IMG/VR virus record: IMGVR_UViG_3300042400_001354
Span: 1 to 63,574 of that record
DNA from: a virus
Strand: one strand, 5' to 3'
DNA length: 63,574 bases
The notes below the pieces were generated by a model. It did no database searches. It worked only from the letters and a program-made list of their open reading frames with translations, and was not told where the DNA came from. Below, piece after piece: positions 5,225-50,724 of this stretch (positions are counted from its first letter, which is position 1; every line of letters begins with the position of its first letter). A program made the translations under genes and the position numbers.

Positions 5225-5791
5225 TTACCCCAATTTTATATAAGGAGAAATATAATTCTCCCGTAAATGATTTACACTAAAAGTTCCTTCTGGATTACCA
5301 GAATGTATTTCAGTTGCATTTTTAGTTTCTCCCTGAGAATCAACAAAATTATCTACTTTATGTGAATATAAATTTCCATTATAATGCCGTTTAGATATAT
5401 GTTTAAATGCAGAATCATATAATTTATTTAAATGCTCATCATCACCAAAATATCTAATAGATTGACCTCTATCTAATTTATCTTTATACAATTTTATTAC
5501 AATACCAACTAATGGTGCGGCTGCAGCACCTTTATGTTGATGCAGCCGCTCAATGCCAGTTTTTGAATTATCATCAGCTCTAGAAAAATGTACTTCCCAG
5601 GCATTTTTATGTTTAAATCTTAAAAATACATAAGGAGTATTTTTATGTGTTGTATGATACGCTTCTACATTAGTCAATGTATGAGGATAATATCGCTCCT
5701 TTACAGCATCTTCTAATGGTTTATGTCTATGCAAATCTAATGTTGTATCGAATATTTCAGTCAATTCAATAAAATTAGAAAAAGATTTCAT
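5225..5791 (-). CDS. Uncharacterised phage protein with capsid-targeting-like N-terminus
   Basis: 188 residues of unknown function. The N-terminus MKSFSNFIELTE resembles the T4 IPIII capsid targeting sequence and the N-termini of the proteins at 9415, 10012 and 12576. The rest is mixed alpha/beta with many His and aromatic residues and contains HQHKGAAAAPLVGIVIKLY. It lies between mazG and the small membrane gene. A virion-packaged or host-directed protein is an inference from the N-terminus only. Confidence 0.6.
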   Translation of the reverse strand: MKSFSNFIELTEIFDTTLDLHRHKPLEDAVKERYYPHTLTNVEAYHTTHKNTPYVFLRFKHKNAWEVHFSRADDNSKTGIERLHQHKGAAAAPLVGIVIKLYKDKLDRGQSIRYFGDDEHLNKLYDSAFKHISKRHYNGNLYSHKVDNFVDSQGETKNATEIHSGNPEGTFSVNHLRENYISPYIKLG

Positions 5792-6207
5792 TAAACATCA
5801 CCTTCCGCGCGAACTTCTGATTTAATAATCTCAAATCCTGCAGGATAACGAGCAGATAATTTCTCAACATTCATAACAATAATTTCATCAAGTGTAGTAC
5901 CCAATGCAGATGCTGCTACCGCCAAATACCAACAAATATCACCCAATTCGCGTTTCATATGAAAAACATTTTCTTCGTTTAACGGCTTACCTTGAAATAA
6001 AATTTTCTTAACAACTTCAGTAAACTCACCTGCCTCAGCAGTTAAACCAGCAGAAGCAGTAACCAATTGAGGAATTTTAACACCAAACTCTTTTGATCCA
6101 GTATTAAGTTCTTCTAATCTAACCATTAAAGAATTGAAATCACTTGAAGCAGGAGAAATTGTACCAGCCACAAATTTCTCATAATCTTTTAATTCAACTT
6201 TACTCAT
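5791..6207 (-). CDS. mazG: MazG-like NTP pyrophosphohydrolase
   Basis: All-alpha NTP-PPase fold enzyme, 138 residues. The metal-binding signature is visible: EAGEFTE (ExxxxE type) followed about 30 residues later by ELGDICWY (ExxD). MazG-type enzymes hydrolyse nucleoside triphosphates or (p)ppGpp-like alarmones; phage copies are proposed to tune host nucleotide pools. The start at 6207 is chosen because ATG there is preceded by GAGGA and overlaps the thyX stop; an upstream open extension would overlap thyX by about 150 nt and looks unreal. Confidence 0.85.
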   Translation of the reverse strand: MSKVELKDYEKFVAGTISPASSDFNSLMVRLEELNTGSKEFGVKIPQLVTASAGLTAEAGEFTEVVKKILFQGKPLNEENVFHMKRELGDICWYLAVAASALGTTLDEIIVMNVEKLSARYPAGFEIIKSEVRAEGDV

Positions 6208-7036
6208 TAATATTTTCCTCTTTATTATATAACATTTGTTCAATTCTATCTCTGTATTGAATCCAACCTTTAAAATTTCTGTAATAAAAATCAGATTCTC
6301 CTGGAGTTGCTTGGTGTTCAGCTGGGCTTGCATGTAACGGCTCAGAACCAACTAAACGATCATGTAACTCAACATCTTTTCTTACATGAGGATTTGATCC
6401 ATCATGATTGCTATAAGATACTCTAGCACAACGAGCTGTTGAACATTTTAATAGAATATCTTCATCACATAATTCACGTTCTGTATCAGTAATATACGGT
6501 AAATGCCATTCACCATGCTCAACTTTTTTTGGTTGACTATTTTGAATTGCACCATAAATTGTTTTTGCTAATTCCTGAATTTCTGGTTGAGCATCAGGAT
6601 GAATTCTTAAATTAAAGAAATTTTCCCATTCAGTTGAAGTAACAATAACATTAATATACTGCCATGGTTCAAGAATACGATTACCAATTTGTTTATGTAA
6701 ACCAATTTTGCTAAATGCATAAGCAAATACACAAGCAAATTTAGCAGATAATTTCCAAACAAATTTAGCAGCTGTTAATTTGAACCCACTTAATTCAGAT
6801 TTAGCTTGCATACCAGCAACATTAGCTCCCCAATGAACTGGCATAGCAGGATCATTCCATACTTGGGCAATAATTTTGCTAATAGGAATAGCTCTAGAAC
6901 TAGACGCAGACCTAGAGAATACACGATGTGTCATAAATTCCTGATGTATATATCGATGATACCTCAATTGTAGTGTACAAATTCTATTTTCAATACCATC
7001 AAAATAAGAATCTGCAATCATTTTAGCTGTAATCAT
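6200..7036 (-). CDS. thyX: FAD-dependent thymidylate synthase ThyX
   Basis: Makes dTMP from dUMP using methylenetetrahydrofolate and FAD. The ThyX signature region is present as HRVFSRSASSSR (residues 37-48, equivalent to RHRxxSxxxxSxR), with a conserved CARVSYSNHDG later. 278 residues. The start overlaps the stop of the small gene at 7033 (ATGA) and the end overlaps mazG. It works with nrdA/B, dCMP deaminase and dNMP kinase to supply dTTP, sensible for an AT-rich genome. No base-hydroxymethylating form is indicated. Confidence 0.92.
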   Translation of the reverse strand: MITAKMIADSYFDGIENRICTLQLRYHRYIHQEFMTHRVFSRSASSSRAIPISKIIAQVWNDPAMPVHWGANVAGMQAKSELSGFKLTAAKFVWKLSAKFACVFAYAFSKIGLHKQIGNRILEPWQYINVIVTSTEWENFFNLRIHPDAQPEIQELAKTIYGAIQNSQPKKVEHGEWHLPYITDTERELCDEDILLKCSTARCARVSYSNHDGSNPHVRKDVELHDRLVGSEPLHASPAEHQATPGESDFYYRNFKGWIQYRDRIEQMLYNKEENINE

Positions 7037-7191
7037 TGTTCAAAGTGCTCCTTATAATATTTTTCAAATTCAGGTTTATCTAATGGTATATATTGTTCTT
7101 CAGTATATTGAAACCAAACACCATTAATACGCAAATATTCTGTACCATCAACATCAAATCGCGTACATTTTAAATCTTCAAGTTTTTCCAT
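7033..7191 (-). CDS. Small conserved-looking protein between primase and thyX
   Basis: A 52-residue acidic protein (MEKLEDLKCTRFDVDG... EHFEQ). The frame exactly fills the space between the primase and thyX: its ATG overlaps the primase stop (TAATG at 7193-7189) and its TGA overlaps the thyX ATG (ATGA). This double coupling is strong evidence of a real gene. It contains Tyr/Phe/Trp-rich stretches (YLRINGVWFQYTEEQY). Function unknown. Confidence 0.7.
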   Translation of the reverse strand: MEKLEDLKCTRFDVDGTEYLRINGVWFQYTEEQYIPLDKPEFEKYYKEHFEQ

Positions 7192-8189
7192 TATATTTTT
7201 TTCCAGTTTAAAAATTCAATTTCAGCCATCAACCCAGAATAGGTGTGCTTAGTTATTATACCTAACAATTCCTGTTCCGTCAAGCCATTTTTTATAGCAT
7301 CATTAATATCTTTTGCACCAAAAGATTCTGGCAACAAACAGACATTAAAATTATTTTTAATAAATTTTTCTATATTAGAAACAATATTTTTATTTCTAGG
7401 TTCGCAATCAGGAACTAATATTAATTTATCTTTTGAGAATACTGTTGAAGCTGATGCTAAATTTGAATCAGCAGTAGCAATTGCATTTGGAAGAAATAAA
7501 CTATCAAATGGTCCTTCAACTACATATATTGGTTTCATAGGATCAACTTTATCCAATCCAAATATTTTTTCCTGTTCTTTATCAAGTTTAACAGTAATAT
7601 ATCTCATTGAATAATTATCAATTGCTCTACCTTGAAACGCAATTAGTTCCCCTGATCTAGAGAAAAACGGAATTATTATTCGAGGTCCAGTTTTCTCCAA
7701 CTTTTTATCGGAAACAGATTCTACAAATTGTTTAAAATCTTCAGAAAAATAAAGAGTTTTTAACGCTTTTGTAGGTATTTTACGATCTAAAAGATACTTT
7801 TTAGCGACATGATTATCGTCTAATGAGTCTACCGTGGGTAAATCTAGTTTTTTCTCAGTTTTTTTAAATTTTGGGATGGATGGAACTTCAATTTTGCGTC
7901 CAGCAGGATTAAATTTTTCTTGAAATGATTCCATAACATATTCTTTTTCCAAATACGGATCAAGATAATTAATTAAAGATCTTACTGTTGTACCTTTATC
8001 GCAATTAAAACATGTAAAAAAATAACTGTCATTTTTCGCATAAACGAATCCACGAGTTTTAGATTTAATTTTTTGAGAATCCCCGCAATAAGGACACCTA
8101 AACGTATAAAGATTTGTATTTTTTTGTTTAAAATGTTCTAATTTAGAAGAAAGTAGTAAGAGATATTTTCTATCAATCCAAATGCTCAT
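7191..8189 (-). CDS. 61: DNA primase (T4 gp61 type)
   Basis: Synthesises RNA primers for lagging-strand replication together with the gp41 helicase. The N-terminal zinc-binding module has CPYC (C32, C35) and CFNC (C60, C63). A TOPRIM-like catalytic region follows: YVVEGPFDSLF (about residue 218-228, catalytic Glu) and LILVPDCEPRN (acidic pair). 332 residues, close to T4 gp61 (342). It has its own sigma70-type promoter at 8222-8250. In T4 it lies next to gene 41; here about 14 kb of glycan and virion-protein genes separate them. Confidence 0.9.
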   Translation of the reverse strand: MSIWIDRKYLLLLSSKLEHFKQKNTNLYTFRCPYCGDSQKIKSKTRGFVYAKNDSYFFTCFNCDKGTTVRSLINYLDPYLEKEYVMESFQEKFNPAGRKIEVPSIPKFKKTEKKLDLPTVDSLDDNHVAKKYLLDRKIPTKALKTLYFSEDFKQFVESVSDKKLEKTGPRIIIPFFSRSGELIAFQGRAIDNYSMRYITVKLDKEQEKIFGLDKVDPMKPIYVVEGPFDSLFLPNAIATADSNLASASTVFSKDKLILVPDCEPRNKNIVSNIEKFIKNNFNVCLLPESFGAKDINDAIKNGLTEQELLGIITKHTYSGLMAEIEFLNWKKI

Positions 8190-8196
8190 AATGAAA

Positions 8197-8221
8197 AAGC
8201 CTATAATTTTCGTATAGGCTT
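8197..8221 (-). terminator. Intrinsic terminator of the 13769-8255 operon
   Basis: Perfect 9-bp stem AAGCCTATA / TATAGGCTT with a 7-nt loop; in minus-strand RNA it ends in a run of U. It lies 34 nt after the stop of the gene at 8255 and just before the primase start. The start point expected from the promoter at 8222-8250 falls inside the first arm, so transcripts begun there would lack the full hairpin and escape termination. Confidence 0.75.
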
Positions 8222-8250
8222 ATTATACTATCAAACTTAAAAAAAAGCAA
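8222..8250 (-). promoter_or_regulatory. Sigma70-type promoter for primase
   Basis: Minus strand: TTGCTT (8250-8245), 17-nt spacer ending ATAG, TATAAT (8227-8222). Same architecture as the promoters at 28413, 32124, 33853, 36396, 41445 and 44774. It faces gene 61 and the nucleotide-metabolism genes. Confidence 0.75.
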
Positions 8251-8254
8251 GTTT

Positions 8255-8695
8255 TTAGTGTATCATTAAAATTTTTTTAACTAATTCTGAATTTGAGAGT
8301 AACCAAAGAATAACAGCACCTCCCCCCCATACTAACCATTTAATTTGAAGCAATTCTCCAGTTTTATTTTCTTGTTTTACAATTCTATCGGTTAAATCTT
8401 GATTAAGATTTGTGATTTCTTCTGATAATAATTTTTCAATAGCAGATATTCTATTAGAAATACCTTTTTCAGTTTGTTCTAAGGAAGAATACAATTCCGA
8501 TAATTCTTCCTTAGTATAAATTAAATTAGCCTCTATTTTTGTTGTTTTATCAATAAGAGAGTCGTGCTGAGAATCAATTTTTTCTATTACTGAATCCAGT
8601 TTCTCAAATAGTTTATTGATAAATGAAACTTCCTGTTTCAACACAGCAACTTCAACTCTCAAATCAGATAATGTTGAATTATCAGTTACTGCCAT
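8255..8695 (-). CDS. Coiled-coil protein with C-terminal membrane anchor
   Basis: 146 residues. Residues about 10-110 are long amphipathic heptads (VAVLKQEVSFINKLFEKLDSV and onward), predicted coiled coil. Residues about 118-136 (IKWLVWGGGAVILWLL) form one C-terminal membrane span with a short basic tail. Topology is that of a tail-anchored spacer. Last gene of the operon, directly before the terminator at 8197-8221; overlaps the stop of the gene at 8686. A membrane-contact or ejection role is a guess. Confidence 0.65.
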   Translation of the reverse strand: MAVTDNSTLSDLRVEVAVLKQEVSFINKLFEKLDSVIEKIDSQHDSLIDKTTKIEANLIYTKEELSELYSSLEQTEKGISNRISAIEKLLSEEITNLNQDLTDRIVKQENKTGELLQIKWLVWGGGAVILWLLSNSELVKKILMIH

Positions 8696-8880
8696 CTAGT
8701 CATCCTTTTTGATTCTTGTTCTATATTTGATGTTGTTTCTAGCAATTTATCTAATTTTACAGAATATGATTCTAATGTAAATAACATTTTATCATATTTA
8801 GAATAATCTAAAATATCAGAAATTAATATATTTTCTAAAGAGTGTTCTAGCATCTTTTGTGTCCCTTTGACAGCAACCAT
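8686..8880 (-). CDS. Small helical protein, unknown
   Basis: 64 residues, helical and charged (LISDILDYSKYDKMLFTLESY). ATG at 8880 assumed; an internal ATG nine codons later has a better GGG-containing ribosome site, so the true protein may be 55 residues. Its stop overlaps the following coiled-coil gene by 10 nt. T4-like prohead and tail operons contain many such small proteins; no function assigned. Confidence 0.5.
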   Translation of the reverse strand: MVAVKGTQKMLEHSLENILISDILDYSKYDKMLFTLESYSVKLDKLLETTSNIEQESKRMTRWQ

Positions 8881-8893
8881 AATTAATCTTAAG

Positions 8894-9415
8894 TTATTTT
8901 AATTTTTGCAATTTATAAATTGTAGTATTACATAATTCTACACTTTCATCAATAATATTTTGTATAGATGTATCATCTGTAATTAAATTGCGAGTTTTAC
9001 CAATCCAATCTCTAAATTCAATAATAGCATCTACAGCAATTTTCATTTCAGCAGCAATCGAGGGAAGAGAAATGAATTTACCATATAAACCAATATATGA
9101 TTCACAAAAACTATCAATTTTCCCAACAATTTCTTCATAAAATGTTGCTAAAGCACTATGTTCCGAAAATGAATCTGTACTTAAATGCGCAAAATGAGTA
9201 GTAGTTGCTAAAGCTCTTGCTCTAGCAAAAAACTCACTAGCAACAGAATTCGAGATATTTTCTGGTGTCCCTTGAGTTTCGGCTTCCTGAGCAGGATATC
9301 CTGGTTTCGATGCCTCAAATAATATTTGATCTAGAGAATATTTTTGTACACGAGTTCTATCCAATCCATATTGTTCAACGATTGAGGTAATTTTATTTAA
9401 ATATTTTTGTTCCAT
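8894..9415 (-). CDS. Ferritin-like (Dps-like) phage protein
   Basis: 173 residues. The central segment (ARALATTTHFAHLSTDSFSEHSALATFYEEI, about residues 64-95, then KIDSFCESYIG) resembles the first helix pair of Dps-type ferritins and the phage DUF5856-like family. Dps proteins oxidise iron and bind DNA; in phages the role is unproven. The N-terminal third is variable. TGATG overlap with the upstream gene places it in the operon of capsid-targeted proteins, so it may be a virion or DNA-protecting protein. Some expected metal ligands are not obvious by eye. Confidence 0.6.
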   Translation of the reverse strand: MEQKYLNKITSIVEQYGLDRTRVQKYSLDQILFEASKPGYPAQEAETQGTPENISNSVASEFFARARALATTTHFAHLSTDSFSEHSALATFYEEIVGKIDSFCESYIGLYGKFISLPSIAAEMKIAVDAIIEFRDWIGKTRNLITDDTSIQNIIDESVELCNTTIYKLQKLK

Positions 9416-9612
9416 CAGGGGTTCCTTGTTAATGGCAAAGGTGTTAATAATGCACTTTTTTTCTTACGGCTCACTCCTGGTTCAGCTTGATTCGGTAACG
9501 TTGCATTAGGTACACCTGCTCCAGCAATGTTACCCGTACCAACTACACTCCCACCAGAAACACTAGCTGTTCCACCTTCGCATTCTGCAATAAAATCTTT
9601 AAATGTTTTCAT
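9415..9612 (-). CDS. Small Gly/Ser-rich protein with capsid-targeting-like N-terminus
   Basis: 65 residues. Begins MKTFKDFIAE, matching the T4 internal-protein III targeting peptide (MKTYQEFIAE) at seven of ten positions, including the FIAE that T4 gp21 protease cleaves after. The rest is low-complexity Gly/Ser/Ala/Val then a basic SRKKKSALL stretch. RBS AAGGA before ATG 9612. Candidate internal head protein, processed by the prohead protease at 50083. Function after packaging unknown. Confidence 0.65.
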   Translation of the reverse strand: MKTFKDFIAECEGGTASVSGGSVVGTGNIAGAGVPNATLPNQAEPGVSRKKKSALLTPLPLTRNP

Positions 9613-9992
9613 AAAGTCCTTAATATTTTTGCAATTTCCATATCAACAGGAATATCCGAAGAAATAATGATATTATTATTTATTTTAATTTCGTTTGGCA
9701 TTCTGTTTAAATAAATTAAAAAAGTTTTTAATTGGCTATAATTATCTGATTCTATTTTATAAAACAACATCATATTTACTGCTACAGTTGGCTCAAATAC
9801 ATTATATAATAATATAAGATGATTTAAAATTAACCTTTCAGCTAATATTCCATTTTTTTTATATTTTTTTAATAACCGTTTAATATAAGTTATTCGTTTT
9901 AAATCAGTATTAAATTCAACAGTAGAATAATGTAACGGCCAATAATGTTTCACAGCAAAAAATATAAAATTTTCTTCAGTCAATTCATCCAT
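9609..9992 (-). CDS. Conserved-type small phage protein, helical
   Basis: About 127 residues, rich in Asn/Ile/Lys, with DLKRITYIKRLLKKYKKNG (about residues 30-48) followed by hydrophobic helices (RLILNHLILLYNVF). This pattern is familiar from a conserved T4-like aquatic phage protein of unknown function. Start: GTG at 9998 is open but ATG at 9992 is preferred. Its stop overlaps the next ATG (ATGA), coupling it to the capsid-targeted gene at 9415. Confidence 0.6.
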   Translation of the reverse strand: MDELTEENFIFFAVKHYWPLHYSTVEFNTDLKRITYIKRLLKKYKKNGILAERLILNHLILLYNVFEPTVAVNMMLFYKIESDNYSQLKTFLIYLNRMPNEIKINNNIIISSDIPVDMEIAKILRTL

Positions 9993-10011
9993 AATCACAA
10001 CGTAAAATAAA

Positions 10012-10392
10012 TTAAATTAATTCAGCAGAACATTTATATAACCCATCAACTAGATTATACGAAAATTTTAAAATATAAGGATTGGTATTTAAAATTTTTC
10101 CATCAAACTCATCCCATTTTGTATTATGGAGACCGACGGTCAAATTTAATGTTCCATTTTTTGTATCATTAATATCTACTTGAGGAATATCTAAACTATA
10201 CATTGCTAAAATTTTACTTAATTTAACTAAAGCTTCTTCAACAGTTTTAAATGATTGTCTTAATGTTAAATCAATATTTCTATTTAATTGATTTTTAATT
10301 TCTGGAATTGCTACATCAGTACCAGTTGTCTCAATATCAACAATTGGCGCATTAATATATAATTCTGTAATATATTCTTTAAATGTTTTCAT
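10012..10392 (-). CDS. Unknown protein with capsid-targeting-like N-terminus
   Basis: 126 residues. Begins MKTFKEYITE, closely similar to the T4 IPIII targeting peptide and to the gene at 9415; a gp21-type cut after ITE would remove the leader. The remainder is alpha/beta with KTVEEALVKLSKILAMY and a beta-rich end. No fold recognised. Part of the 13769-8255 operon. Confidence 0.6.
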   Translation of the reverse strand: MKTFKEYITELYINAPIVDIETTGTDVAIPEIKNQLNRNIDLTLRQSFKTVEEALVKLSKILAMYSLDIPQVDINDTKNGTLNLTVGLHNTKWDEFDGKILNTNPYILKFSYNLVDGLYKCSAELI

Positions 10393-10398
10393 AATGAT

Positions 10399-10932
10399 TT
10401 AATTTGGTGTTATGTAATTGTTGTCTGTTTGTGCTTGATTTTGGTCTGAATCGCTAGATTTATTTCTGGAGTCAGGATACCCGAAAAAAGTAACGGCAAC
10501 CCCTTTTTTCCCAGATTTACTATCCTTTTTCGCATTTTTAATAGCCTCAATCAACGAAGTTGAATTTTGGATATCTATGCTCTCATAATGATTGACTTTT
10601 AACCAAGCATGAAACGCTGGAGAATTTTTAATTTTATCGCGCAATTGCTTACCAACAATTCCACGCAATTTATATGGGTCTAGACCCAAATGACGATAAT
10701 AATTTACAAACAAATCGTATCTAGATACTTCATCTAATTGTTCTGATTCTTCATGACAACATTTTTTCGCAGTAGCTGTAGCAATAGCCATCTTTTTTGA
10801 CATACCACTAGGAGTAGAACCCATCCCTGGATTTTCTCTTTCCATAGCTTTTGCAATTTTTTCGCGTTTATGTTTTTCTTTATCTGTTAATTTTCTCTCT
10901 AGATAAAGTTGTTTAATGTCTGTAAATTTCAT
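10399..10932 (-). CDS. Basic protein of the internal-protein operon
   Basis: 177 residues. MKFTDIKQLYLERK start, then a very basic region (KLTDKEKHKREKIAKAMEREN) and a GMGSTPSGMSKKMAIATATAKK segment; a middle domain (EVSRYDLFVNYYRHLGLDPYKLRG) is helical; the tail is polar and low-complexity. The charge suggests DNA association. The start is TAAATG with the upstream gene. Leader resemblance to capsid-targeting peptides is weaker than in 9415 and 10012. Function unknown. Confidence 0.55.
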   Translation of the reverse strand: MKFTDIKQLYLERKLTDKEKHKREKIAKAMERENPGMGSTPSGMSKKMAIATATAKKCCHEESEQLDEVSRYDLFVNYYRHLGLDPYKLRGIVGKQLRDKIKNSPAFHAWLKVNHYESIDIQNSTSLIEAIKNAKKDSKSGKKGVAVTFFGYPDSRNKSSDSDQNQAQTDNNYITPN

Positions 10933-11178
10933 TTATCGGGTTCCTAAATTTTGATAATGAGATAATAATTTTTCTTTAAATATTTTAGGTGGTTCTTTGG
11001 GTTTATTTACAGAAACAGATTTCGAGACCAACTGAGGAGCAGACAATTCAGGTTGATCTTTTGCAGAAGTAAATTTTGCAACTTTACTTCCATGAAAATG
11101 TTTTGTCGGGTCTGTAGATTTAAATAAAGCTTTTAAAGAAGTATATTTATTTAGTCCGTGTTGTTCATCCAATTCCAT
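10933..11178 (-). CDS. Small unknown protein, overlaps kinase 3' end
   Basis: 81 residues, Lys/Ser/Pro-rich (SKSVSVNKPKEPPKIFKEKLL), with no recognisable domain. Its start overlaps the P-loop kinase by 14 nt, and its stop directly precedes the next ATG (TAAATG). Lysine- and proline-rich small proteins are common among phage head internal proteins, but there is no targeting leader here. Confidence 0.5.
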   Translation of the reverse strand: MELDEQHGLNKYTSLKALFKSTDPTKHFHGSKVAKFTSAKDQPELSAPQLVSKSVSVNKPKEPPKIFKEKLLSHYQNLGTR

Positions 11179-11962
11179 ATGGTACTACCTTTTTAAAATT
11201 GATTTTTTTAATTTTACCTAAAACTCTTCTGGTTCGTTCTTTATCATCATCCGATCGCATATCAGCAGTTGAACTAGATAATTTTTGCATAGGGCTCGTT
11301 GCGATAGGGCTAGTATCAAAAGAAAAAACCTCATAAGATTCAGCAACACCATTATACACAGACCAAGATCCTGGAGTCATACCTCTTGTATCAGTAACAT
11401 CTCCAGGAACAATAGATTTTAATTTTTTCTTGATTCTGGGTTTAGCAATATCTTCTAGCGTTAAATCGCTTTTGAAAGATAATTCGCTTAAAATATCTAA
11501 AATATAAATTCTAGCTTCAGATAAATCTAGAGTTTCAGAATTATCAACTATAATATTCGACTCAAATAGTTCCAAAATAGATTTTCTATTTGCATTTCCA
11601 ATTGTTATTCTTTCTAAAGATTCTTTTAAATTATTTCTAGTTTTTAATCTTTCTATGGATACAGATAAATTAGTTTCAACCAAAATTAAATGCGCAGAAT
11701 ACCCTATAGATTCTAATACTTGTTTTGTTAGAGCAAAATTTAAATTAAAACTATTTGCTGTTATAAGAATTGAATTTCTTTCCAATAAAGATTCTTGTTT
11801 TTCAGGTAAAGCTCGTTTAAATGCTGTATCGTTAGATAACATTTCGTCTATTTGAGTTGCGGTAAATTCGATAATATTGTAATTAGAAGTAATATCTCTA
11901 ATTACAACATCTTTTCCTGCACCTGGAGCTCCAATAATAAAAATAGCTTGATTTTTTTGCAT
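11165..11962 (-). CDS. P-loop kinase-like protein
   Basis: 265 residues. A perfect Walker A, GAPGAGKD (residues 11-18), opens a nucleoside/polynucleotide-kinase-like domain of about 165 residues with a lid-type segment (SVSIERLKTRNNLKESLERI). The C-terminal 100 residues are unlike known kinases and include DTRGMTPGSWSVYNGVAESYEV and a basic end. Substrate unknown: nucleotide, RNA 5' end or a zeta-toxin-like target. It is coupled (TAATG) to the nucleotidyltransferase at 11962, arguing for a shared pathway. Confidence 0.75.
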   Translation of the reverse strand: MQKNQAIFIIGAPGAGKDVVIRDITSNYNIIEFTATQIDEMLSNDTAFKRALPEKQESLLERNSILITANSFNLNFALTKQVLESIGYSAHLILVETNLSVSIERLKTRNNLKESLERITIGNANRKSILELFESNIIVDNSETLDLSEARIYILDILSELSFKSDLTLEDIAKPRIKKKLKSIVPGDVTDTRGMTPGSWSVYNGVAESYEVFSFDTSPIATSPMQKLSSSTADMRSDDDKERTRRVLGKIKKINFKKVVPYGIG

Positions 11963-12576
11963 TACATTAATCTCAGTCTACTTAAAAAATTCTGGATATA
12001 AGATTCTTTTAACCCAATTCCTGAACTAACATCATGCATTAATTCTCTGGCATGATCATCAGACACAGTACTTGGAACACCTTTTCTGAAAGATTCGAAA
12101 TCATTATTACTAGCATGATCTCGCATTTTACTTCCAGACATACCCTCTGTTCCTTCTGAATCTGGATCTCGGTGGCCAGCAGAACGAACGTCTACTTTTT
12201 TGAAATTATAGTAACCATGTTTACCATGCACCCCATTATATTTATTAATCAAATCTTCCATATCTTTTGTTCTATCAGAACCACCCACATATATCAAATG
12301 TGAATGGCCAGCATCATGTAATTTAGACAAATGATGTAATAATGTTGGAGAATCTTTATGAGCAACAACAAAATTAGTTCTAGGGGAATATCGATTTAAA
12401 TGTTTCAATTTTTGTTCTGTGGATAAAGGATTTTTCTTTGGATCATGAGAACCAGAAACTATAACAGAATGAGCAGCATCTTCTTTATCAGCAATAGAAT
12501 GGACTGCATCTATTAATTTTAAATGACCAGTTGTTGGTGGGTTCATTCTACCAAAAGCAGTTACAACTTTACTCAT
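11962..12576 (-). CDS. Cytidylyltransferase/NMNAT-like nucleotidyltransferase
   Basis: 204 residues. The HxGH-type motif is present as FGRMNPPTTGH (residues 8-18, T-x-G-H form) and the second nucleotide-binding motif as SGSKMR (147-152, in the place of ISSTxxR). YVGGSDR (about 96-102) fits the middle of the fold. Family members transfer AMP or CMP to a phosphorylated substrate (for example nicotinamide mononucleotide or phosphopantetheine). The substrate cannot be told from sequence. Overlaps by TGATG with the ligase-like gene upstream and by TAATG with the kinase downstream. Confidence 0.8.
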   Translation of the reverse strand: MSKVVTAFGRMNPPTTGHLKLIDAVHSIADKEDAAHSVIVSGSHDPKKNPLSTEQKLKHLNRYSPRTNFVVAHKDSPTLLHHLSKLHDAGHSHLIYVGGSDRTKDMEDLINKYNGVHGKHGYYNFKKVDVRSAGHRDPDSEGTEGMSGSKMRDHASNNDFESFRKGVPSTVSDDHARELMHDVSSGIGLKESYIQNFLSRLRLM

Positions 12577-13769
12577 CAGCGTACCTTTAATAAATTGGCT
12601 TTAGAAAATTCTGCACGATTAACTAATTTAATCGGAGCACCATCTGTATCTTTTGATTTAGTTGGATGAAATACAAATCCTTCTGGATCTGTACGATTAC
12701 CGCTAATATGATGTTCCAATCCACCTTCATGTTGATTTAATGTATTAACCAATACATCTTTAGCTTTTTGTAAATGGTGATGCAATTTAAGTAAATTGTT
12801 GTAATGTTCTGAGTTTCCATCTATATGATCTAGGTGTGATTGCAACTCAGTATTTTTTCTTGCTTGAGAAGCTGTTGTTTTTAATTTATCAATTGCTTTC
12901 TGGTATTTGCCTGCAATATGAGATTTCAAACCTTGTGCAGTTGGTTTCTCGCCTGTTCGCACAGTATGATTAATATATGTAGCTAGATGACCTGAATCTC
13001 CGCTATGCGGTTCTGTAGCCTCGTACATAGTATTTTTATGAGTATCATGAAGTTTTTTTGCTGCAGATAAATGTGTATTAAATTCCGTCTGAGCTGATTC
13101 GGAATAATGAACATTTTTTGTATCGTGCTCAGGAGATTTACCATAAACATCTGGATGGTGAGCGAAATTATGGTGATCCGGATTAGGATCTGCTGTCATA
13201 GAAGCAATGCTATTACCATGATATTGCGTATGTGTTACAACACCAACTTTAGCACGTTTTATCTTATCTGCTTCATCACCACGAGCCGTGTAAGATATAG
13301 TATTTGGAGTAAAAGAAGCAGACCCATCATCTTTATGTTTAACATCATTTCCACTAAACATTAAATCACCTTGATACACTCCTCGTTTAGGAGCAACTTT
13401 AGGTAGATGATGGAGAGCATCTTTTAATTTTTCAGCTAATCCAGGAGCATGACCGTGATTACGATCAATGTCTTCTGATGTATAATTGATTTTAGGGTTT
13501 TTATTAAAAGCTGATTTAGAAGCAACAAAAAATTTACCAGTTTCTGGATGATGTCCATATACAATAGAAGGAGACCCATCATATTTCATAGTCAATTTAG
13601 GACCAGATTGACCATTTTTAATATAATTATGCGCTTCATTTATTGCAGATATTGCACTAGACGTTCCATGAGAACCTTCAAATGCTTTATCTTCAACATG
13701 TGTTAAATGTTTTAATTTCGAGCCTTCTTCTTCTTTATTTTCAATAATGAAATGTTTAAATCGTAACAT
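12576..13769 (-). CDS. ATP-grasp/ligase-type nucleotidyltransferase with capsid-targeting-like N-terminus
   Basis: 397 residues. Shows the covalent nucleotidyltransferase motifs of DNA/RNA ligases: KYDG (K62-G65, motif I), VYQGDLMF (131-138, motif III-like), EGFVF (E363, motif IV) and IKLV (K381, motif V). Between them is a His-rich helical insert of about 200 residues. The N-terminus MLRFKHFIIE resembles capsid-targeting leaders. No C-terminal OB domain is visible after motif V, so it may be an end-adenylating enzyme or minimal ligase. Strong RBS (AAAGGGG) and a double late promoter at 13797-13812. First gene of the operon running to 8255. Confidence 0.75.
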   Translation of the reverse strand: MLRFKHFIIENKEEEGSKLKHLTHVEDKAFEGSHGTSSAISAINEAHNYIKNGQSGPKLTMKYDGSPSIVYGHHPETGKFFVASKSAFNKNPKINYTSEDIDRNHGHAPGLAEKLKDALHHLPKVAPKRGVYQGDLMFSGNDVKHKDDGSASFTPNTISYTARGDEADKIKRAKVGVVTHTQYHGNSIASMTADPNPDHHNFAHHPDVYGKSPEHDTKNVHYSESAQTEFNTHLSAAKKLHDTHKNTMYEATEPHSGDSGHLATYINHTVRTGEKPTAQGLKSHIAGKYQKAIDKLKTTASQARKNTELQSHLDHIDGNSEHYNNLLKLHHHLQKAKDVLVNTLNQHEGGLEHHISGNRTDPEGFVFHPTKSKDTDGAPIKLVNRAEFSKANLLKVR

Positions 13770-13791: not shown

Positions 13792-14814
13792 TTAAGTATT
13801 TATATATTTATATAATTCAGGGGATTCACTTTTTATACAAATAGATTTGCACGTAGGATAATAATTGTTAAAATCGTTAATAACAATTCTTTTTGCTCTA
13901 TGAATATTCATTATCAATAAGCAGTCACCAAATCCCATATCACATAACATTTGTTTAGTTTGTTTCTCAAATTTTGAATCTCTGGCTGTAGTAAATATAA
14001 TTTGACACCCGTTTCGCAATTTTTCTAATAACGCATCAACATTTTGTTGTATTGGTTCATACATTTCAAATGGGTTTAAATCGTACCTACTTTGAACTTT
14101 ACAAATAACTCCATCAATATCAGAAAAATAGGTTGGTTTATCATTATAAGCATTAAATTCTGAAATAGTCCCAACATCAATATAATTTGACACTAAATTT
14201 TTAATGAAAATTTCTCCTGAATTAATCATATTTCCAATTATTTCTGATATATAAATTTCATTGGACATAGAATTTAATTCTTCGAATGTGGTTAAATAAT
14301 TAATTGCACAAGAAAATTGATATCCACCAACACAAAAATATTCGCTAACGATATTTTTTTCTATAATATTAGTAATAATATTTTGATCATTAGTTTTAAT
14401 ATAGCTTTTAGCTTGCAAATTTTTATTTGATCCTATGTTATCACAATAAACCACATTCCCTGTTTCTAGTTTATGCGTAAAAAATGAATCACAATCTCTA
14501 ACTAAAAATGGTCCAGTAATATTAGCACGTTTTATTGTTTGATAAACAGTATCAGCAGAACCATTGGTTCTATCATCAAGAACAATCACGTTAATAGATT
14601 CACCAAAAATATAATTTAATCTATGAATTATATTATATGTTATTTCGTGTTCTTTTAATATAGTAACGTAAATATTATTGTATTGGTTCGATTTTATATA
14701 TTGAGTAAGAACATTCTCCAAAACCATTGTACCGTCAAAACACGATAAAACATATTTCGGAAAAGAATCTGGAAATCTACTAGATAAACCAGCGCAAGGA
14801 ACTATTAAATCCAT
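13792..14814 (-). CDS. Sugar-phosphate nucleotidyltransferase fused to HAD phosphatase
   Basis: 340 residues in two domains. N-terminal (1-220) nucleotidyltransferase: PCAGLSSRFPDSFPK matches GxGxRxxxxxxPK, and RDCDSF is the metal-binding Asp site. C-terminal (about 228-325) HAD-type domain: FSDIDGVI (DxDG), FTTARD and a late Asp region. Such fusions activate a sugar or polyol phosphate with a nucleotide and remove phosphate from an intermediate. It overlaps the kinase-like gene at 14805, suggesting consecutive steps. Donor sugar unknown. Confidence 0.8.
   Translation of the reverse strand: MDLIVPCAGLSSRFPDSFPKYVLSCFDGTMVLENVLTQYIKSNQYNNIYVTILKEHEITYNIIHRLNYIFGESINVIVLDDRTNGSADTVYQTIKRANITGPFLVRDCDSFFTHKLETGNVVYCDNIGSNKNLQAKSYIKTNDQNIITNIIEKNIVSEYFCVGGYQFSCAINYLTTFEELNSMSNEIYISEIIGNMINSGEIFIKNLVSNYIDVGTISEFNAYNDKPTYFSDIDGVICKVQSRYDLNPFEMYEPIQQNVDALLEKLRNGCQIIFTTARDSKFEKQTKQMLCDMGFGDCLLIMNIHRAKRIVINDFNNYYPTCKSICIKSESPELYKYINT
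13797..13812 (-). promoter_or_regulatory. Tandem T4-type late promoters
   Basis: Two abutting TATAAATA elements on the minus strand (13804-13797 and 13812-13805), 28 nt before the ATG at 13769. T4-like late promoters consist of just this element, read by gp55 with gp45. They overlap the last codons of the preceding gene. They imply that the 13769-8255 operon is expressed with virion genes. Confidence 0.65.
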
Positions 14815-15542
14815 AATCTATTAACCTGTGTTTGAATAAAAATTTTGTCAAAATTAGTTTTACAATAAGGTAAAATTCTAAGTAACATTAATATAGTTAA
14901 ATAATTATCACCAAAATATTCATATCTTAGCGACAAGTTATCTGTTATATACTTTAATTGATGGGATATATGTACATGTTCTTTTCTAATAAACCAATTA
15001 CAAATTAAATCTTGCTTTAATTTGTGTAAATCAAAAACATACGAATTATACTCAGTAGTTAGCCCATCAATTAAGATAAATTGTTTGGATTCCAAATTAA
15101 ATAAAATATTGTCAAAAGAAAAATCTCCAAAATATTGAGATTCAGGTATATTTTTTGGTAATTTATTTATTAATTGGGTTTTAGAAAATTTAAACTGGGA
15201 AAAATCAATATCGCGTAATTTATAAAAATATATTTCTGTATAATCACGAATAACAGAAATATCACGTAATTTATCAACAGTACAAATAATAAAATCTAAT
15301 AAAAATTTTGGATGTTCATTTAAAAGATAAGTTTTAATATCTATATGTTTAATATATTCAATATCATAATATTTTTGTGTAATATTTAAGATTTTAGGAA
15401 AAGGTAAATTTAAATCAGCTAACGCTTTATATCTTTCAATATTTCTTGAAATATTATCCATTTTCCGCACAAAATGGATTCCATTATCCTCAATTATTGA
15501 TACTGTACTAGAAGAATTTCCGCAAAGGTTTTTTACAATCAT
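14805..15542 (-). CDS. APH/choline-kinase-like small-molecule kinase
   Basis: 245 residues. YFGDFSFDNILFN matches the HGDxxxxNxL catalytic loop (first His replaced by Phe) and FILIDGLTTEYNSYVFDLHKL matches the metal-binding IDxxxxxxGxxxxDL segment. Proteins of this type phosphorylate sugars, choline or similar small molecules. The missing His means the exact activity is uncertain. Paired by a 10-nt overlap with the nucleotidyltransferase-HAD gene, as in LicA/LicC-type or sugar-activation pathways. Confidence 0.65.
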   Translation of the reverse strand: MIVKNLCGNSSSTVSIIEDNGIHFVRKMDNISRNIERYKALADLNLPFPKILNITQKYYDIEYIKHIDIKTYLLNEHPKFLLDFIICTVDKLRDISVIRDYTEIYFYKLRDIDFSQFKFSKTQLINKLPKNIPESQYFGDFSFDNILFNLESKQFILIDGLTTEYNSYVFDLHKLKQDLICNWFIRKEHVHISHQLKYITDNLSLRYEYFGDNYLTILMLLRILPYCKTNFDKIFIQTQVNRLWI

Positions 15543-16324
15543 TACAAATTATTAATATATATTCTAACAGGGTCATTAATATCTCTATTTACAGGTTTAA
15601 CTGTAAAAATTGTATTTGTGTTAACTGGAATATTGTAAAATCCCTCTACGATAAGATTAGGGTATAATAATTCCATAATATGTTCTATTGTCATACTATA
15701 TTGTTTACAGTAAAAAGATAACATATAAGTTGGAACAATTTTATTTTTATCGCAAAATTTATAAGCTAATGTTGGAATTAAAGTTTCTTCTACACTACCA
15801 ATAAAATCAATCATCACGGGATAATCTTGTTCTAAACATTTAATAATTTCTTGCATAATTTCGCGTTTGTAAAAATTACCTTCAACGTGATTATTAAAAA
15901 TTTCGTGACTAGGAATTTTATTTAAAAAATCGGTATTATTTATAGTATTTACAGTATTTTGATGTTTAATATTAACAAAATGCTGATGCGATATATCGTT
16001 ATCTTTAATATATTGTTCTATTCCAGGTTTAATGAATAATTCATTTGAATGAAAAATACAAAAATAATCGTAATCAAATTGTTGAGCATATTTAAAATTT
16101 GATATAAAAATTGGTAACGAATTGTGATATTTTATTAAAGAAATTCTAGTTGGATTAATATAAACGTTATCATATTTGTCAACAATAGAATAATCAAATC
16201 CATCCCAATTTTTATTTACATGAATTAATATAATCGGAGCATTAACAAATTTATTAATATTTTGTATTACATTTTCAATAATTTCGTTATTTTCATGTAC
16301 AGGCAAATTAAATAATAGTTTCAT
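15542..16324 (-). CDS. Putative glycosyltransferase (branching-enzyme-like)
   Basis: 260 residues. MKLLFNLPVHENNEIIENVIQNI and DYFCIFHSNELFIKPG suggest a GT-A fold of the kind found in core-2/I-branching or GT14-like enzymes, but motifs are weak. Overlaps neighbours on both sides by 1-4 nt inside a block of glycosyltransferases, which is the main support. Acceptor and donor unknown. Confidence 0.5.
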   Translation of the reverse strand: MKLLFNLPVHENNEIIENVIQNINKFVNAPIILIHVNKNWDGFDYSIVDKYDNVYINPTRISLIKYHNSLPIFISNFKYAQQFDYDYFCIFHSNELFIKPGIEQYIKDNDISHQHFVNIKHQNTVNTINNTDFLNKIPSHEIFNNHVEGNFYKREIMQEIIKCLEQDYPVMIDFIGSVEETLIPTLAYKFCDKNKIVPTYMLSFYCKQYSMTIEHIMELLYPNLIVEGFYNIPVNTNTIFTVKPVNRDINDPVRIYINNL

Positions 16325-17025
16325 TTTAACCTTTCAAACTTTTCAACACAATATTTCATTTCCGAATCACGTAATTTCATTAATTCTTGGTCTTTAAACG
16401 CTGATGCATCATGCTCTCTAAAACAAACTAAAATATCATTTAATATTATTGGATCACCATGATAAAAATATGTTCTATAAAAATATTCGCCATCAACAAT
16501 CCATAATAAATTTTCGTCCATTTCTAATAAACACGTTTTTCTAACAGCATACGCGGATGGATTACCTGTTGTATTATCGCCGTTAACAATTTTATTTCCA
16601 TACCACGGTGTTCTAGTATCAAAAAATTGAGTTCTATCTGAGTTACAATGAGTAAATCCAATCAATAACCAATTACCGCTATTTGTAGAAAAAGCATCTA
16701 CAATTTTTTGAAGAGCAAAAGGATCAACAAAAAAATCGTCCATAAATAAAATTTTTATGATATCTCCAGTAGCATGTTTTAACGCAGAATTAACATTAGC
16801 TGCAGTAATACCCTGTTTTTCATTATATTGTATATATTTAATATCAAAAACATGCGAAAATGTATCACAAATCAGTTTTAAATTATTTTCAGAACTTTGA
16901 TCGGAAATTACAATTTCAAAATTTTTATATGTTTGGTACATTAAATTTGAAAACATTTCAATAAGAAATTGTTCACCCAATTTATTTTTCATTGTGTAAA
17001 TTGGAACACAAATCGATACTTTCAT
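16321..17025 (-). CDS. Family 2-like glycosyltransferase
   Basis: 234 residues. Typical GT2 start MKVSICVPIYTMKNKL, nucleotide-binding region FEIVISDQSSEN, and a DxD-like MDDFF (about residue 95) after ATGDIIKILF. Lacks membrane spans, so acts in the cytoplasm on a soluble or peripheral acceptor. Member of the glycan island 21964-13792. Confidence 0.8.
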   Translation of the reverse strand: MKVSICVPIYTMKNKLGEQFLIEMFSNLMYQTYKNFEIVISDQSSENNLKLICDTFSHVFDIKYIQYNEKQGITAANVNSALKHATGDIIKILFMDDFFVDPFALQKIVDAFSTNSGNWLLIGFTHCNSDRTQFFDTRTPWYGNKIVNGDNTTGNPSAYAVRKTCLLEMDENLLWIVDGEYFYRTYFYHGDPIILNDILVCFREHDASAFKDQELMKLRDSEMKYCVEKFERLK

Positions 17026-17027
17026 AA

Positions 17028-17711
17028 TTAAATTTGAATTGGAATTAAAAGAGTTGGTAACTCCGGATTACCAAAAGTTATATTTTTATTTACATCTGAT
17101 ACATTAAATATACTACAATATGAATCTAAAATATCTGTTATATCATATCCCATGGTTTTTAGGTTATTAATATAATTTATTTGTGTGTAATACGCAGAAT
17201 TATAATCGTCGCCAACAAATACAAAAATATCGTTATATTTTTCATAAATAATTTTACACACATCAGATCTAATAATCCCATTAGATATTTGAGGATGAAT
17301 AACTTGATCCCCTGACCCGCCAGCTTTACTACAAACTAATGGTGTTTGTAGCGTAGCTCTATCAATAAAAGGTTTATAAAAATTAGGATTTGTTGGAATA
17401 TAATCGTCTTCTATCATAAAAAAATGATTATATTTATTTTTTGATAAATTATATTTTATTGCATCATTCCAAGCGCCATACGAAAAACCAATATTTTCTC
17501 TATATAGAATATTATAGTACGATTCATATTCACGCAATTCCGTTGGATAAATCCCACTAACAACAAATGTTGGTTCTATTTTTGTAGCATCACATTCTTT
17601 TAAAAACTTAATATGCCGTTTAAAAAAGAATAATGGATCTTTTGATAATAAAGAATTACAAAAAGGGCTTAATCTAGAACCAAAATATAAAGCTACAATA
17701 TAATTAATCAT
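17028..17711 (-). CDS. Putative glycosyltransferase
   Basis: 227 residues. Contains FFMIEDDYIPT (acidic metal-site-like triplet, about residues 95-105) after GAWNDAIKYN, a GT-A-like arrangement. The C-terminus (GDDYNSAYYTQINYINNLKTMGY) matches no specific family. Overlaps the aminotransferase gene by 8 nt. Function inferred from motif and neighbours. Confidence 0.6.
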   Translation of the reverse strand: MINYIVALYFGSRLSPFCNSLLSKDPLFFFKRHIKFLKECDATKIEPTFVVSGIYPTELREYESYYNILYRENIGFSYGAWNDAIKYNLSKNKYNHFFMIEDDYIPTNPNFYKPFIDRATLQTPLVCSKAGGSGDQVIHPQISNGIIRSDVCKIIYEKYNDIFVFVGDDYNSAYYTQINYINNLKTMGYDITDILDSYCSIFNVSDVNKNITFGNPELPTLLIPIQI

Positions 17712-18780: not shown

Positions 18781-18787
18781 AATCACC

Positions 18788-20229: not shown

Positions 20230-20232
20230 AAA

Positions 20233-21964: not shown

Positions 21965-21965
21965 A

Positions 21966-47621: not shown

Positions 47622-48917
47622 TTACATTAAATTTTTAACAGTAAAAATTCTGTAGTAGTTGTTTGAACGAGATTTAATATCACCTAAACCTTGTGTCAAA
47701 CCTTCAGCAAATGGATTAGCAACTAAACCGTAACGAGTTTTGAAGCCAATTTTTGGTTGGAAAGTATCAGGATCAACCGCACGAACCATTTGTAGAGGAA
47801 CGTATGGGCAGTAGAAAATACCTGAATCATAAGGACTTGTACCTTTATAACCAACAGTTACTAATTCTACATTTTGAGCTGAACCACCAAAATATGGATC
47901 AATGTAAACTTTAATACGACCATGCAACAAACCAGCATAAGTATTACCAGTATCATCAACAGTTAAATCAGAAGACAAAGCAGGAGTATATTGTAATACA
48001 CCAGCCATAGCTAAAGCTGAAGCAACGTCTGAAGAAACGATCATAATGTTACCTTTACCACGACGAGTTGTTTTAGCGATTTGATTCGCTTCACGTTCGA
48101 TATGATAAATTAAACCTTTAAATCTTTCAACTGACCAACGACCGTTAGAATCTGTATCCAAATCAAATACGCCTGGAGTAACAGTACCAAATTGAGCGCC
48201 TGCTTTAGCAACAACGTAGATTGTACGGATAACTTCACGATTAATTTCAGCTAAGATTTCTGTAGAAAGAACGTTTGATAATTCTGTTTCAGCGTCTAAC
48301 CCGTGGATAGCTTTTAAATCTTGTGCCATTTCTAAGCTATATTCAGCTTTTAATGCACGAGTTTTAGCGGCAACGGTTACTTTCTCGATTGTGATTGACA
48401 TTTGTGGGAAAGGATTTAAAACCTCGCCTGCAGCAGTTGTCATACCTCTACCAGAATCGAAAGAAGTATTAGCTAATGGACCAGTAGAACTAACAACTGA
48501 ATTTGCAGTACCAGTTGCAACTGAACCACCGTCGCCAACGATACCAGAGAAAATTGTGTTAGCTTCATTGTAGAATGCTTCTGCGCCAGATTGATCGCCG
48601 TAACGTGAACGTAAAGCAAAAATCAACCCTGTAGGACCAGTCATTGGTTGGACGCCAGCAACATCATAAGCAATTAAGTTAGGAAGAGCACGACGTACTA
48701 AACTGATTAAGATAGGATCAAAATTTGAAATGCCAGCAGCCAAGTTACCTGGAGTGCTTTCATTTAAAGTTTGACGATCTGAGTCCATTGCAGATTGTTG
48801 GTTTTCTAATACGATAGCTGTTACTGCTTTTTTGTATGGATCAGAAATTTTTGATAATTCTGGATGATCCAATACTGGACTCCATTTTGATTGTAATTCT
48901 TCATTTAATAATGCCAT
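47622..48917 (-). CDS. 23: Major capsid protein gp23
   Basis: 431 residues. Core matches T4 gp23: GISNFDPILISLVRRALPNLIAYDVAGVQPMTGPTG and IEKVTVAAKTRALKAEYSLE. About the first 60-65 residues form the prohead pre-piece normally cut by gp21. Forms the hexamers of the icosahedral head. Late promoter element AATAAATA 33 nt upstream, bidirectional terminator downstream. No gene 24 (vertex) neighbour in the window. Confidence 0.98.
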   Translation of the reverse strand: MALLNEELQSKWSPVLDHPELSKISDPYKKAVTAIVLENQQSAMDSDRQTLNESTPGNLAAGISNFDPILISLVRRALPNLIAYDVAGVQPMTGPTGLIFALRSRYGDQSGAEAFYNEANTIFSGIVGDGGSVATGTANSVVSSTGPLANTSFDSGRGMTTAAGEVLNPFPQMSITIEKVTVAAKTRALKAEYSLEMAQDLKAIHGLDAETELSNVLSTEILAEINREVIRTIYVVAKAGAQFGTVTPGVFDLDTDSNGRWSVERFKGLIYHIEREANQIAKTTRRGKGNIMIVSSDVASALAMAGVLQYTPALSSDLTVDDTGNTYAGLLHGRIKVYIDPYFGGSAQNVELVTVGYKGTSPYDSGIFYCPYVPLQMVRAVDPDTFQPKIGFKTRYGLVANPFAEGLTQGLGDIKSRSNNYYRIFTVKNLM

Positions 48918-50082: not shown

Positions 50083-50724
50083 TTAAAGTTTTGATAAAAA
50101 GTTTTCGAATATTTTTAAAGCAACAGGTTCAACATCCTCAGCTTTAAGTTTTTTTAGTGTTGTTCTAGATTCCTCTAGGTATTGTTCAACCCAACCTTTA
50201 CCTTCAATATACATCCATTCTTTACCTTCCATTAACCCTTCAACATAACAATCTTTTCCTGATGGATCTAACACAATATCAACTGTAACTAAACGAAAAT
50301 CTGGTTGGACATATTTAATGCCATTTGATTCTTTAATCGAACCCATGCCACGAGTAGAAACTCCAAAATTTACACCAGCATCAATAAATGATTTTACGAT
50401 ATTGCCATTTGGTGTATCTAAAATGGTAGCTTCACCGAAACAACGATGATCATCAAAATCTAATTTTGTTATAAGGTGAGACACTTTATCAGGATTGATT
50501 TGGGGTCCTTCTGGGTGCGATAATTCGCCTAAAGCTCTACGAGTATCAATGTAATCTCTTTTATATCTAGCAACTTCAGGAAGCATATGTTCTTTTACAT
50601 AAATTCTTCCATTTCTATTTTGTTCGTTGCAATGAATGAAATAACCTTTAATTGAATGTTGTTTTTTACCACCAACTTCTTCTACAAGAACATCTGTCTC
50701 GGTGAATTCGTTTAACACTTTCAT
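50083..50724 (-). CDS. 21: Prohead protease gp21
   Basis: 213 residues, herpesvirus-type serine protease fold. Catalytic His70 in LGELSHPEGP and Ser123 in FGVSTRGMGS. Cleaves gp22, gp23 and internal proteins after Glu; a likely processor of the capsid-targeting leaders seen at 9415, 10012 and 12576. Confidence 0.95.
   Translation of the reverse strand: MKVLNEFTETDVLVEEVGGKKQHSIKGYFIHCNEQNRNGRIYVKEHMLPEVARYKRDYIDTRRALGELSHPEGPQINPDKVSHLITKLDFDDHRCFGEATILDTPNGNIVKSFIDAGVNFGVSTRGMGSIKESNGIKYVQPDFRLVTVDIVLDPSGKDCYVEGLMEGKEWMYIEGKGWVEQYLEESRTTLKKLKAEDVEPVALKIFENFLSKL

Follow-up and report, generated by a model that had tools for sequence, protein, structure and literature searches.

The internal proteins (IPs) of bacteriophage T4 carry an N-terminal capsid-targeting sequence (CTS), one of the closest described counterparts of the leaders considered here. 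According to tests of IPIII with amber suppressors, residues 4 and 7 carry targeting and residues 8 and 10 carry processing, and Asp at position 10 permits targeting while blocking processing (PMC9026906). The same source describes varied internal proteins behind a conserved leader in the T-even phages, perhaps as a general device of T4-like phages, and one host strain is reported to require IPIII in its cytoplasm, where the protein works without its leader (PMC9391042). Here, we analyzed a 63.6-kb virus record with a T4-like gene set (IMG/VR record IMGVR_UViG_3300042400_001354; the window, meaning the whole stretch of 63,574 nucleotides), in which the initial annotation had proposed a T4-type leader family of five genes. 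We conclude with considerable confidence that three window genes do carry a T4-type capsid-targeting leader.

All five N-terminal strings quoted in the initial annotation are present in the window, and all five genes lie on the minus strand, its gene coordinates being their stop-codon ends. The leaders of the genes ending at 9415, 10012, and 12576 were upheld, the gene at 10399 was removed from the family, and the gene at 5225 was left undecided. The IPIII start used as the template (MKTYQEFIAE) agrees with the T4 sequence, in which IPII starts identically. The three upheld genes are as follows, with the support for each in parentheses (regex, the regular expression given below).

9583..9612, minus strand: leader MKTFKDFIAE, predicted CTS of a 65-amino-acid (aa) protein (regex, DNA pattern, homologous N-termini)
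9415..9612, minus strand: the 65-aa protein, with leader, Gly/Ser/Ala-rich middle, and RKKK tail (three genes upstream of primase)
10363..10392, minus strand: leader MKTFKEYITE (regex, DNA pattern, homologous N-termini)
10012..10392, minus strand: 126-aa protein with this leader, predicted internal protein (no significant family match)
13740..13769, minus strand: leader MLRFKHFIIE (regex, DNA pattern, DUF6267 loci)
12576..13769, minus strand: DUF6267 protein of 397 aa (PF19782, phrog_455), predicted packaged enzyme (profiles, model)

The regex M..[FYL]..[FYWH][ILVM].[ED] matched 3 of the 75 non-overlapping ATG open reading frames of at least 60 aa in the window, as against a mean of 0.05 matches after shuffling of residues 2-10, with none of 2000 shuffles reaching 3; this count is partly circular, because the regex was written after the initial annotation had been read. 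At the DNA level, a pattern equivalent to the regex hit exactly the three upheld starts in the window, and its reversed control hit nothing. A shuffle test on one representative per family in 80 DUF6267 loci gave 0 matches among 137 representatives and was not used, because single linkage had made its clusters too broad and each was represented by its longest member. The tests of recurrence, modularity, protease, and virion proteomes were all drawn from outside the window.

To follow recurrence, we used 84 loci, namely, 80 contigs retrieved with the DUF6267 protein (one of the six search peptides overlaps the leader) and four from a DNA pattern search for MK[ST]FK[QE][FY][ILM]xE. DUF6267 bears the leader in 81 of them; DUF6267 is cut off in one, lacks the leader in another, and is absent from the last. 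Among the 35 distinct DUF6267 leaders, F4, F7, and E10 are invariant (35/35) and position 8 is Leu in 33 and Ile in 2, while positions 2, 3, 5, 6, and 9 vary. In the pooled loci, Glu outnumbers Asp at position 10 by 113 to 1, with a regex that permits both. Given that the conserved positions 4, 7, 8, and 10 are the functional residues of IPIII, this pattern supports a CTS of the T4 type. Since tblastn of the 65- and 126-aa proteins against isolated phages gave no match, their relatives were taken from viral contigs. The core motif was found in all 6 distinct homologous N-termini of the 65-aa protein (in 3 directly from the chosen start, in the other 3 preceded by an N-terminal extension), and the leader is kept in all 3 distinct homologous N-termini of the 126-aa protein.

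The leader is also modular. The DNA pattern for MK[ST]FK[QE][FY][ILM]xE occurred in at least 120 stretches of viral contigs, with at least 131 matches. Among the matches listed, 118 open closed frames of at least 50 aa, 11 run off the contig, and 2 open shorter frames; once the first 14 residues are removed, the 118 bodies fall into 56 clusters (sizes 30, 27, 3, five of 2, and 48 single), whose representatives match 45 PHROGs and 25 Pfam families. This bears out the proposal that otherwise unrelated proteins share the leader. The same codons in permuted order occurred in only 2 stretches of the whole collection, and a looser DNA pattern gave 50 matches in 20 records, compared with 2 for its reversed form and 3 for its permuted form. 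The cargo domains include adenylate kinase, HD hydrolase, ADP-ribosyltransferase (an ART-PolyVal protein in contig L194), and HAD-type phosphatases, together with an RNA-ligase-like protein below the Pfam cut-off. The 27-member cluster (e.g., L085:1290-1919) is widespread in the contigs and consists mostly of proteins of ~190-210 aa that read MK[ST]FKEYLTES..Y.FK.K.AGE...TPIQ, and the 30-member cluster (L088:302-619, phrog_1742) holds a 105-aa protein, MKSFK[QS]F[IL]SESVNI.GDFNGNLYINS. Gene 191 of cyanophage S-SZBM1 (OL473597 122311-122628) encodes a 105-aa protein of this phrog_1742 type and lies between both terminase genes.

Published virion proteomes of relatives show that proteins with such leaders do occur in particles. 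In S-CREM2, for which 52 virion proteins are listed (PMC10665884), 5 of 219 coding sequences (CDS) match the regex, and 4 of these 5 are in the virion list:

ORF6, SAM hydrolase: MKDFDSFLEE
ORF13: MKDLHSFLTE
ORF14, APH/ChoK-like kinase: MKRFDAFLTE
ORF154, cytidylyltransferase: MKNFSSFLTE

The enrichment has a one-sided p of 0.012 overall and of 0.0016 among the 195 CDS not listed as structural, where the other CDS were detected in the virion in 24 of 190 cases; a looser regex places 5 of 9 in the virion (p 0.037 and 0.0036, respectively). Of the four non-lysis virion enzymes, only the Cas9-like ORF12 has no regex match at its annotated start, and it reads LRFASFMAE from residue 17, behind a CTG codon. 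The S-CREM2 authors had no explanation for the presence of SAM hydrolase, kinase, and cytidylyltransferase in virions (PMC10665884). By eye, the ORF6 SAM hydrolase (L219:3837-5081) has a post-leader segment, ESSLSR..RKGDKGG.A.MSA.R, that recurs in a family of contig leader proteins, ESSLSRIKSKSDKGG (L132, L138, L154, L171, L189, and L190).

Other proteomes point the same way. In S-SM1, the sole regex-matching ATG frame of at least 50 aa is the T4-GC190 cytidylyltransferase, which is named as a virion protein (PMC3037559), and the virion cytidylyltransferase of S-SZBM1 has the nine-residue form MRFRQFIIE (PMC9146016). The S-SCSM1 cytidylyltransferase starts MKSFLQFLKE, and the enzyme NMNAT is reported in the virions of that phage (PMC9602691); RefSeq gp091 is not NMNAT, and we used the record's only cytidylyltransferase match, which is presumably the ORF91 of that paper. 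In addition, the S-CRM01 kinase, detected in virions as quoted in PMC10665884, starts MISFDQFLSE. With the strict regex, the three countable proteomes together (S-CREM2 4/5, S-SM1 1/1, S-SZBM1 0/2) give 5 of 8 leader proteins detected (P ~0.011, with an approximate S-SM1 background of 41 in 233 CDS). Phage CBB was considered as a further proteome and dropped; its looser-pattern matches numbered 3, 2 of them with an in-frame stop codon.

Removal of the leader would require a prohead protease, and the gp21 that the initial annotation placed at 50083 is indeed encoded there; the major capsid protein gene is present as well.

50083..50724, minus strand: gp21 prohead protease, Peptidase_S77, predicted leader remover (PF03420, E 1.3e-27)
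47622..48917, minus strand: gp23 major capsid protein (PF07068)

When 35 leader-bearing records, chosen for size, were scanned for S77 and Gp23, S77 was found in 19 and Gp23 in the same 19. In the window gp23, an [LI]xE site, TLNE, lies at residue 53, ten residues ahead of the Pfam domain, and besides residue 6 it is the only [LI]xE before the main part of the Gp23 domain.

The CTS reading is well supported for the three genes because residues 4, 7, 8, and 10 are conserved, the leader is modular, gp21 co-occurs, and relatives are found in virion proteomes; very likely, the leader is a T4-type CTS cut by gp21, with a predicted cleavage after Glu10. Under this mechanism, a leader with the consensus M-x-x-F-x-x-[FY]-[IL]-x-E would dock the new protein into the prohead core through its aromatic residues 4 and 7, and gp21 would recognize the hydrophobic residue 8 and Glu10 and cut after the latter. 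The mature protein would be freed inside the head, be packed with the DNA, and probably enter the cell with it. At least three window proteins would use this route, namely, the small Gly-rich basic protein, the 126-aa protein, and DUF6267. From the virion proteomes of relatives, we infer that the window's own leader proteins are packaged, and by analogy with T4 we consider their injection fairly likely.

Several observations weigh against this reading. The leader gene ORF175 of S-CREM2 (55 aa) is not among the 52 virion proteins listed, and the canonical leader genes 191 and 192 of S-SZBM1 are not among the 30 detected virion proteins listed (PMC9146016). Sixteen of the 35 leader-bearing records lack S77, and one of these spans 95.7 kb; all 16 also lack Gp23, so they are probably fragments, which fits without being proof. 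The co-occurrence with gp21 was counted without a matched non-T4 set, and the T4-like nature of the records explains both leader and protease.

Other explanations were considered. The undetected S-SZBM1 genes would fit the idea that abundant cell proteins carried over in cesium chloride preparations account for the virion detections and that the leader has some other role; carry-over is a concern that the authors of the S-CREM2 (PMC10665884) and S-SCSM1 (PMC9602691) studies raise themselves. We judge this very unlikely, given that leader-bearing CDS of S-CREM2 are detected far more often than its other CDS not listed as structural and that leader-bearing cytidylyltransferases are reported in the virions of four phages (S-SM1, S-SCSM1, S-SZBM1 in the nine-residue form, and S-CREM2). 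A further possibility, which we regard as improbable, is a core-binding tag that serves head assembly only, the tagged proteins building or sizing the prohead core and then being degraded or left behind rather than acting as effectors. Such a role would agree with the cutting of T4 core proteins by the same protease, with the slower head assembly that follows IPIII loss (PMC9026906), and with the 65-aa protein, in which profile searches found no enzyme domain; against it, most of the recognizable cargo is enzymatic (adenylate kinase, HD hydrolase, ADP-ribosyltransferase, RNA-ligase-like, and HAD proteins, and the SAM hydrolase and kinase of S-CREM2), and T4 IPI and IPIII act in the host (PMC9391042 for IPIII).

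We give hardly any weight to the view that the N-termini resemble each other through common descent of a few genes, or through a preference for A-rich codons at translation starts, with no targeting signal. The leader starts are A/T-rich, and 57 of the 118 proteins belong to just two body clusters, but the bodies are unrelated across the 56 clusters, and the kept positions use synonymous codons (at position 4, TTT in 36 and TTC in 20; at position 10, GAA in 47 and GAG in 9). Moreover, codon patterns of similar composition, whether permuted or reversed, hardly occur.

As for the nature of DUF6267, its AlphaFold2 model has a predicted local distance difference test (pLDDT) score of 87.9, with residues 9-19 disordered, as would be expected of a removable leader. 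No variation was seen at K62, D64, G65, E363, G364, or K381 across 38 sequences, and the first three form what we take to be the KxDG motif of the RNA/DNA ligase superfamily. VIA-align placed RNA and DNA ligases first for the model (Z 8.6 for 6vt9 and 8.0 for 1xdn, with T4 RNA ligases at ~7), and Foldseek with the model gave no hit below E 0.1. The sole solved-structure profile match, to a viral antiapoptotic protein (E 0.0025, residues 241-299), was judged to be a helical chance match and rejected. We predict from the model and the invariant residues that DUF6267 is probably a ligase-type (RNA-ligase-like) nucleotidyltransferase.

DUF6267 adjoins a second gene of interest, which one PHROG profile (phrog_455) covers together with it, spanning both the DUF6267 and the cytidylyltransferase domains.

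11962..12576, minus strand: cytidylyltransferase-like protein, without a leader here, predicted DUF6267 partner (profiles; leader-bearing and found in virions in cyanophages)

When the cytidylyltransferase was searched by profile against solved structures, nothing matched at E 0.01. In the window lineage, the leader is on DUF6267 and not on the adjoining cytidylyltransferase (69 loci with both visible). In cyanophages the arrangement is reversed: DUF6267 has no leader in S-SM1, S-RIM2, P-SSM7, P-TIM40, S-SZBM1, and S-CRM01, and the cytidylyltransferase has one in S-SM1, S-SM2, S-CAM7, S-RIM2, P-SSM7, S-SCSM1, and S-CREM2, with variants of nine residues in P-TIM40 and S-SZBM1 and MKLFNQFFKE in S-CRM01. 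Contig L102 likewise pairs a leaderless DUF6267 with a cytidylyltransferase that reads MKTFKQFFFE, a start that fails the regex at position 8. In Melnitz-1, DUF6267 bears the leader (MINFSKYITE) and its partner shows a half-match (MKKFSEIIE), and DUF6267 of isolate C48C1 reads MMLDFKNFITE. S-RIM44 is a misfit to this switch, with no leader on DUF6267 or at the annotated cytidylyltransferase start, an annotation that may be truncated. The simplest reading is that the two proteins form one cargo for which one leader suffices, and DUF6267 probably brings its leaderless partner along into the head. At window positions 11165-12576, the next gene after the cytidylyltransferase-like one is P-loop kinase-like (AAA_33, E 6e-4, below the cut-off), and the pair resembles NadR, a HIGH-type adenylyltransferase fused to a P-loop kinase (PMC9503650).

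Other relatives carry the leader core behind an N-terminal extension of ~15-20 residues (S-CREM2 ORF12 at L219:7704-10313, S-CRM01 at L227:5422-5973, and L203-L212), where the first codon of the core is CTG, CTA, or GTT, not a usual start. Targeting may then act from an internal position, or the propeptide may be longer, as in T4 IPI.

T4 itself yielded one hit with the looser DNA pattern, gene 61.1 (NC_000866 18966-19130, minus strand; L246:1467-1631), which lies directly upstream of the primase gene 61 and beside adfA (61.2) and dmd. Its hypothetical product, gp61.1, has 54 aa and starts MKTFKEFIKE; the rest consists of a stretch rich in Gly, Ser, and Asn and a tail rich in Lys. It is like the window 65-aa protein in leader, composition, build, and position upstream of primase, but the two bodies have no significant BLAST match, and the window protein was not filed as a member of the 61.1 family. 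Small leader proteins of 61.1-like build lie 0.65 to 3 kb upstream of a primase zinc finger in 7 loci (L002, L026, L034, L037, L079, L095, and L202), and the other loci with such proteins show no primase within the stretch examined. Among 50,697 phage records, 1,386 contain relatives of gp61.1. In the literature text available, where matches were mostly unrelated, we found no paper calling gp61.1 an internal protein, and we put it forward as a candidate unrecognized one.

The remaining two genes of the proposed family are as follows.

5225..5791, minus strand: 188-aa protein, MKSFSNFIELTE; MKSFSNFIEL start, possible leader, undecided (targeting residues, no Glu10)
10399..10932, minus strand: 177-aa protein, MKFTDIKQLYLE; rejected as leader of the T4 CTS type (homologous N-termini)

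The 188-aa protein keeps F4, F7, and I8, and it was left undecided because it has Leu instead of Glu at position 10 and no homologue in the loci searched. The 177-aa protein lacks F4 and F7, and its 4 distinct homologous N-termini share a different motif, M-D-x-x-x-I-K-x-L-x-L-E. Elsewhere in the window, inspection by eye revealed a run of glycosyltransferase-like and sugar/amino-sugar metabolism genes directly upstream of the DUF6267 gene (13792-22000), as well as GIY-YIG homing-endonuclease-like open reading frames at 32242-32898 and 52798-53631, one inside the tRNA region and one between gp19 and gp20.

If the leader acts as proposed, ten N-terminal residues would suffice for recognizing, from sequence alone, many of the injected proteins in a very abundant virus class. 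This would explain the recurrent cytidylyltransferases, kinases, and SAM hydrolase of cyanophage virions, an open question in PMC10665884 and PMC9602691, and it would make testable what phages deliver before their own gene expression, besides predicting a possible further T4 internal protein, gp61.1. More speculatively, and with more doubt than confidence, T4-superfamily phages of fresh and salt water might load changing host-directed enzymes via a portable leader removed by gp21, with DUF6267 and the NMNAT-like cytidylyltransferase as a common one-leader complex that repairs nucleic acid or restores nicotinamide adenine dinucleotide (NAD) in the first minutes before host defence. That NAD-related enzymes are packaged in the head has also been inferred by another group, on the basis of fused and neighbouring genes (PMC9503650). 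Our searches for the leader in cyanophages, the family names, and the leader strings, which covered few subscription papers and bioRxiv preprints, either came back empty or led only to reviews of T4 or of jumbo phages. Within that scope, what appears to be new is the wide spread of the leader among environmental T4-like phages, its agreement with virion enzymes that had lacked an explanation, the switch of partner, and the case of T4 61.1.

Among known systems, T4 Alt is alike in being an enzyme with a gp21-cut leader that is packaged and injected. Its leader (MELITELFDE) is, however, unlike those of the window, and no Alt homologue was seen among the window genes scanned. The cytidylyltransferase/NMNAT and kinases of cyanophage virions (S-SM1, S-CREM2, S-SCSM1, S-SZBM1, and S-CRM01) include the same cytidylyltransferase family as window 11962-12576, but in those phages it is the cytidylyltransferase that bears the leader, and DUF6267, wherever it was seen, has none, the reverse of the window. 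Another close likeness is to the CTS of T4 IPI, IPII, and IPIII (Mullaney and Black 1996, as cited in PMC9026906), with which the window shares a ten-residue N-terminal leader, aromatic residues at 4 and 7, a hydrophobic residue at 8, Glu10, and gp21 in the genome; IPI starts MKTFKEF and the window 126-aa protein MKTFKEY. The window system differs from the T4 internal proteins in its unrelated bodies, in a predicted cargo containing a conserved ligase-like enzyme whose gene neighbour is the cytidylyltransferase, and in a leader that has moved between these two partner genes across window-type and cyanophage lineages.

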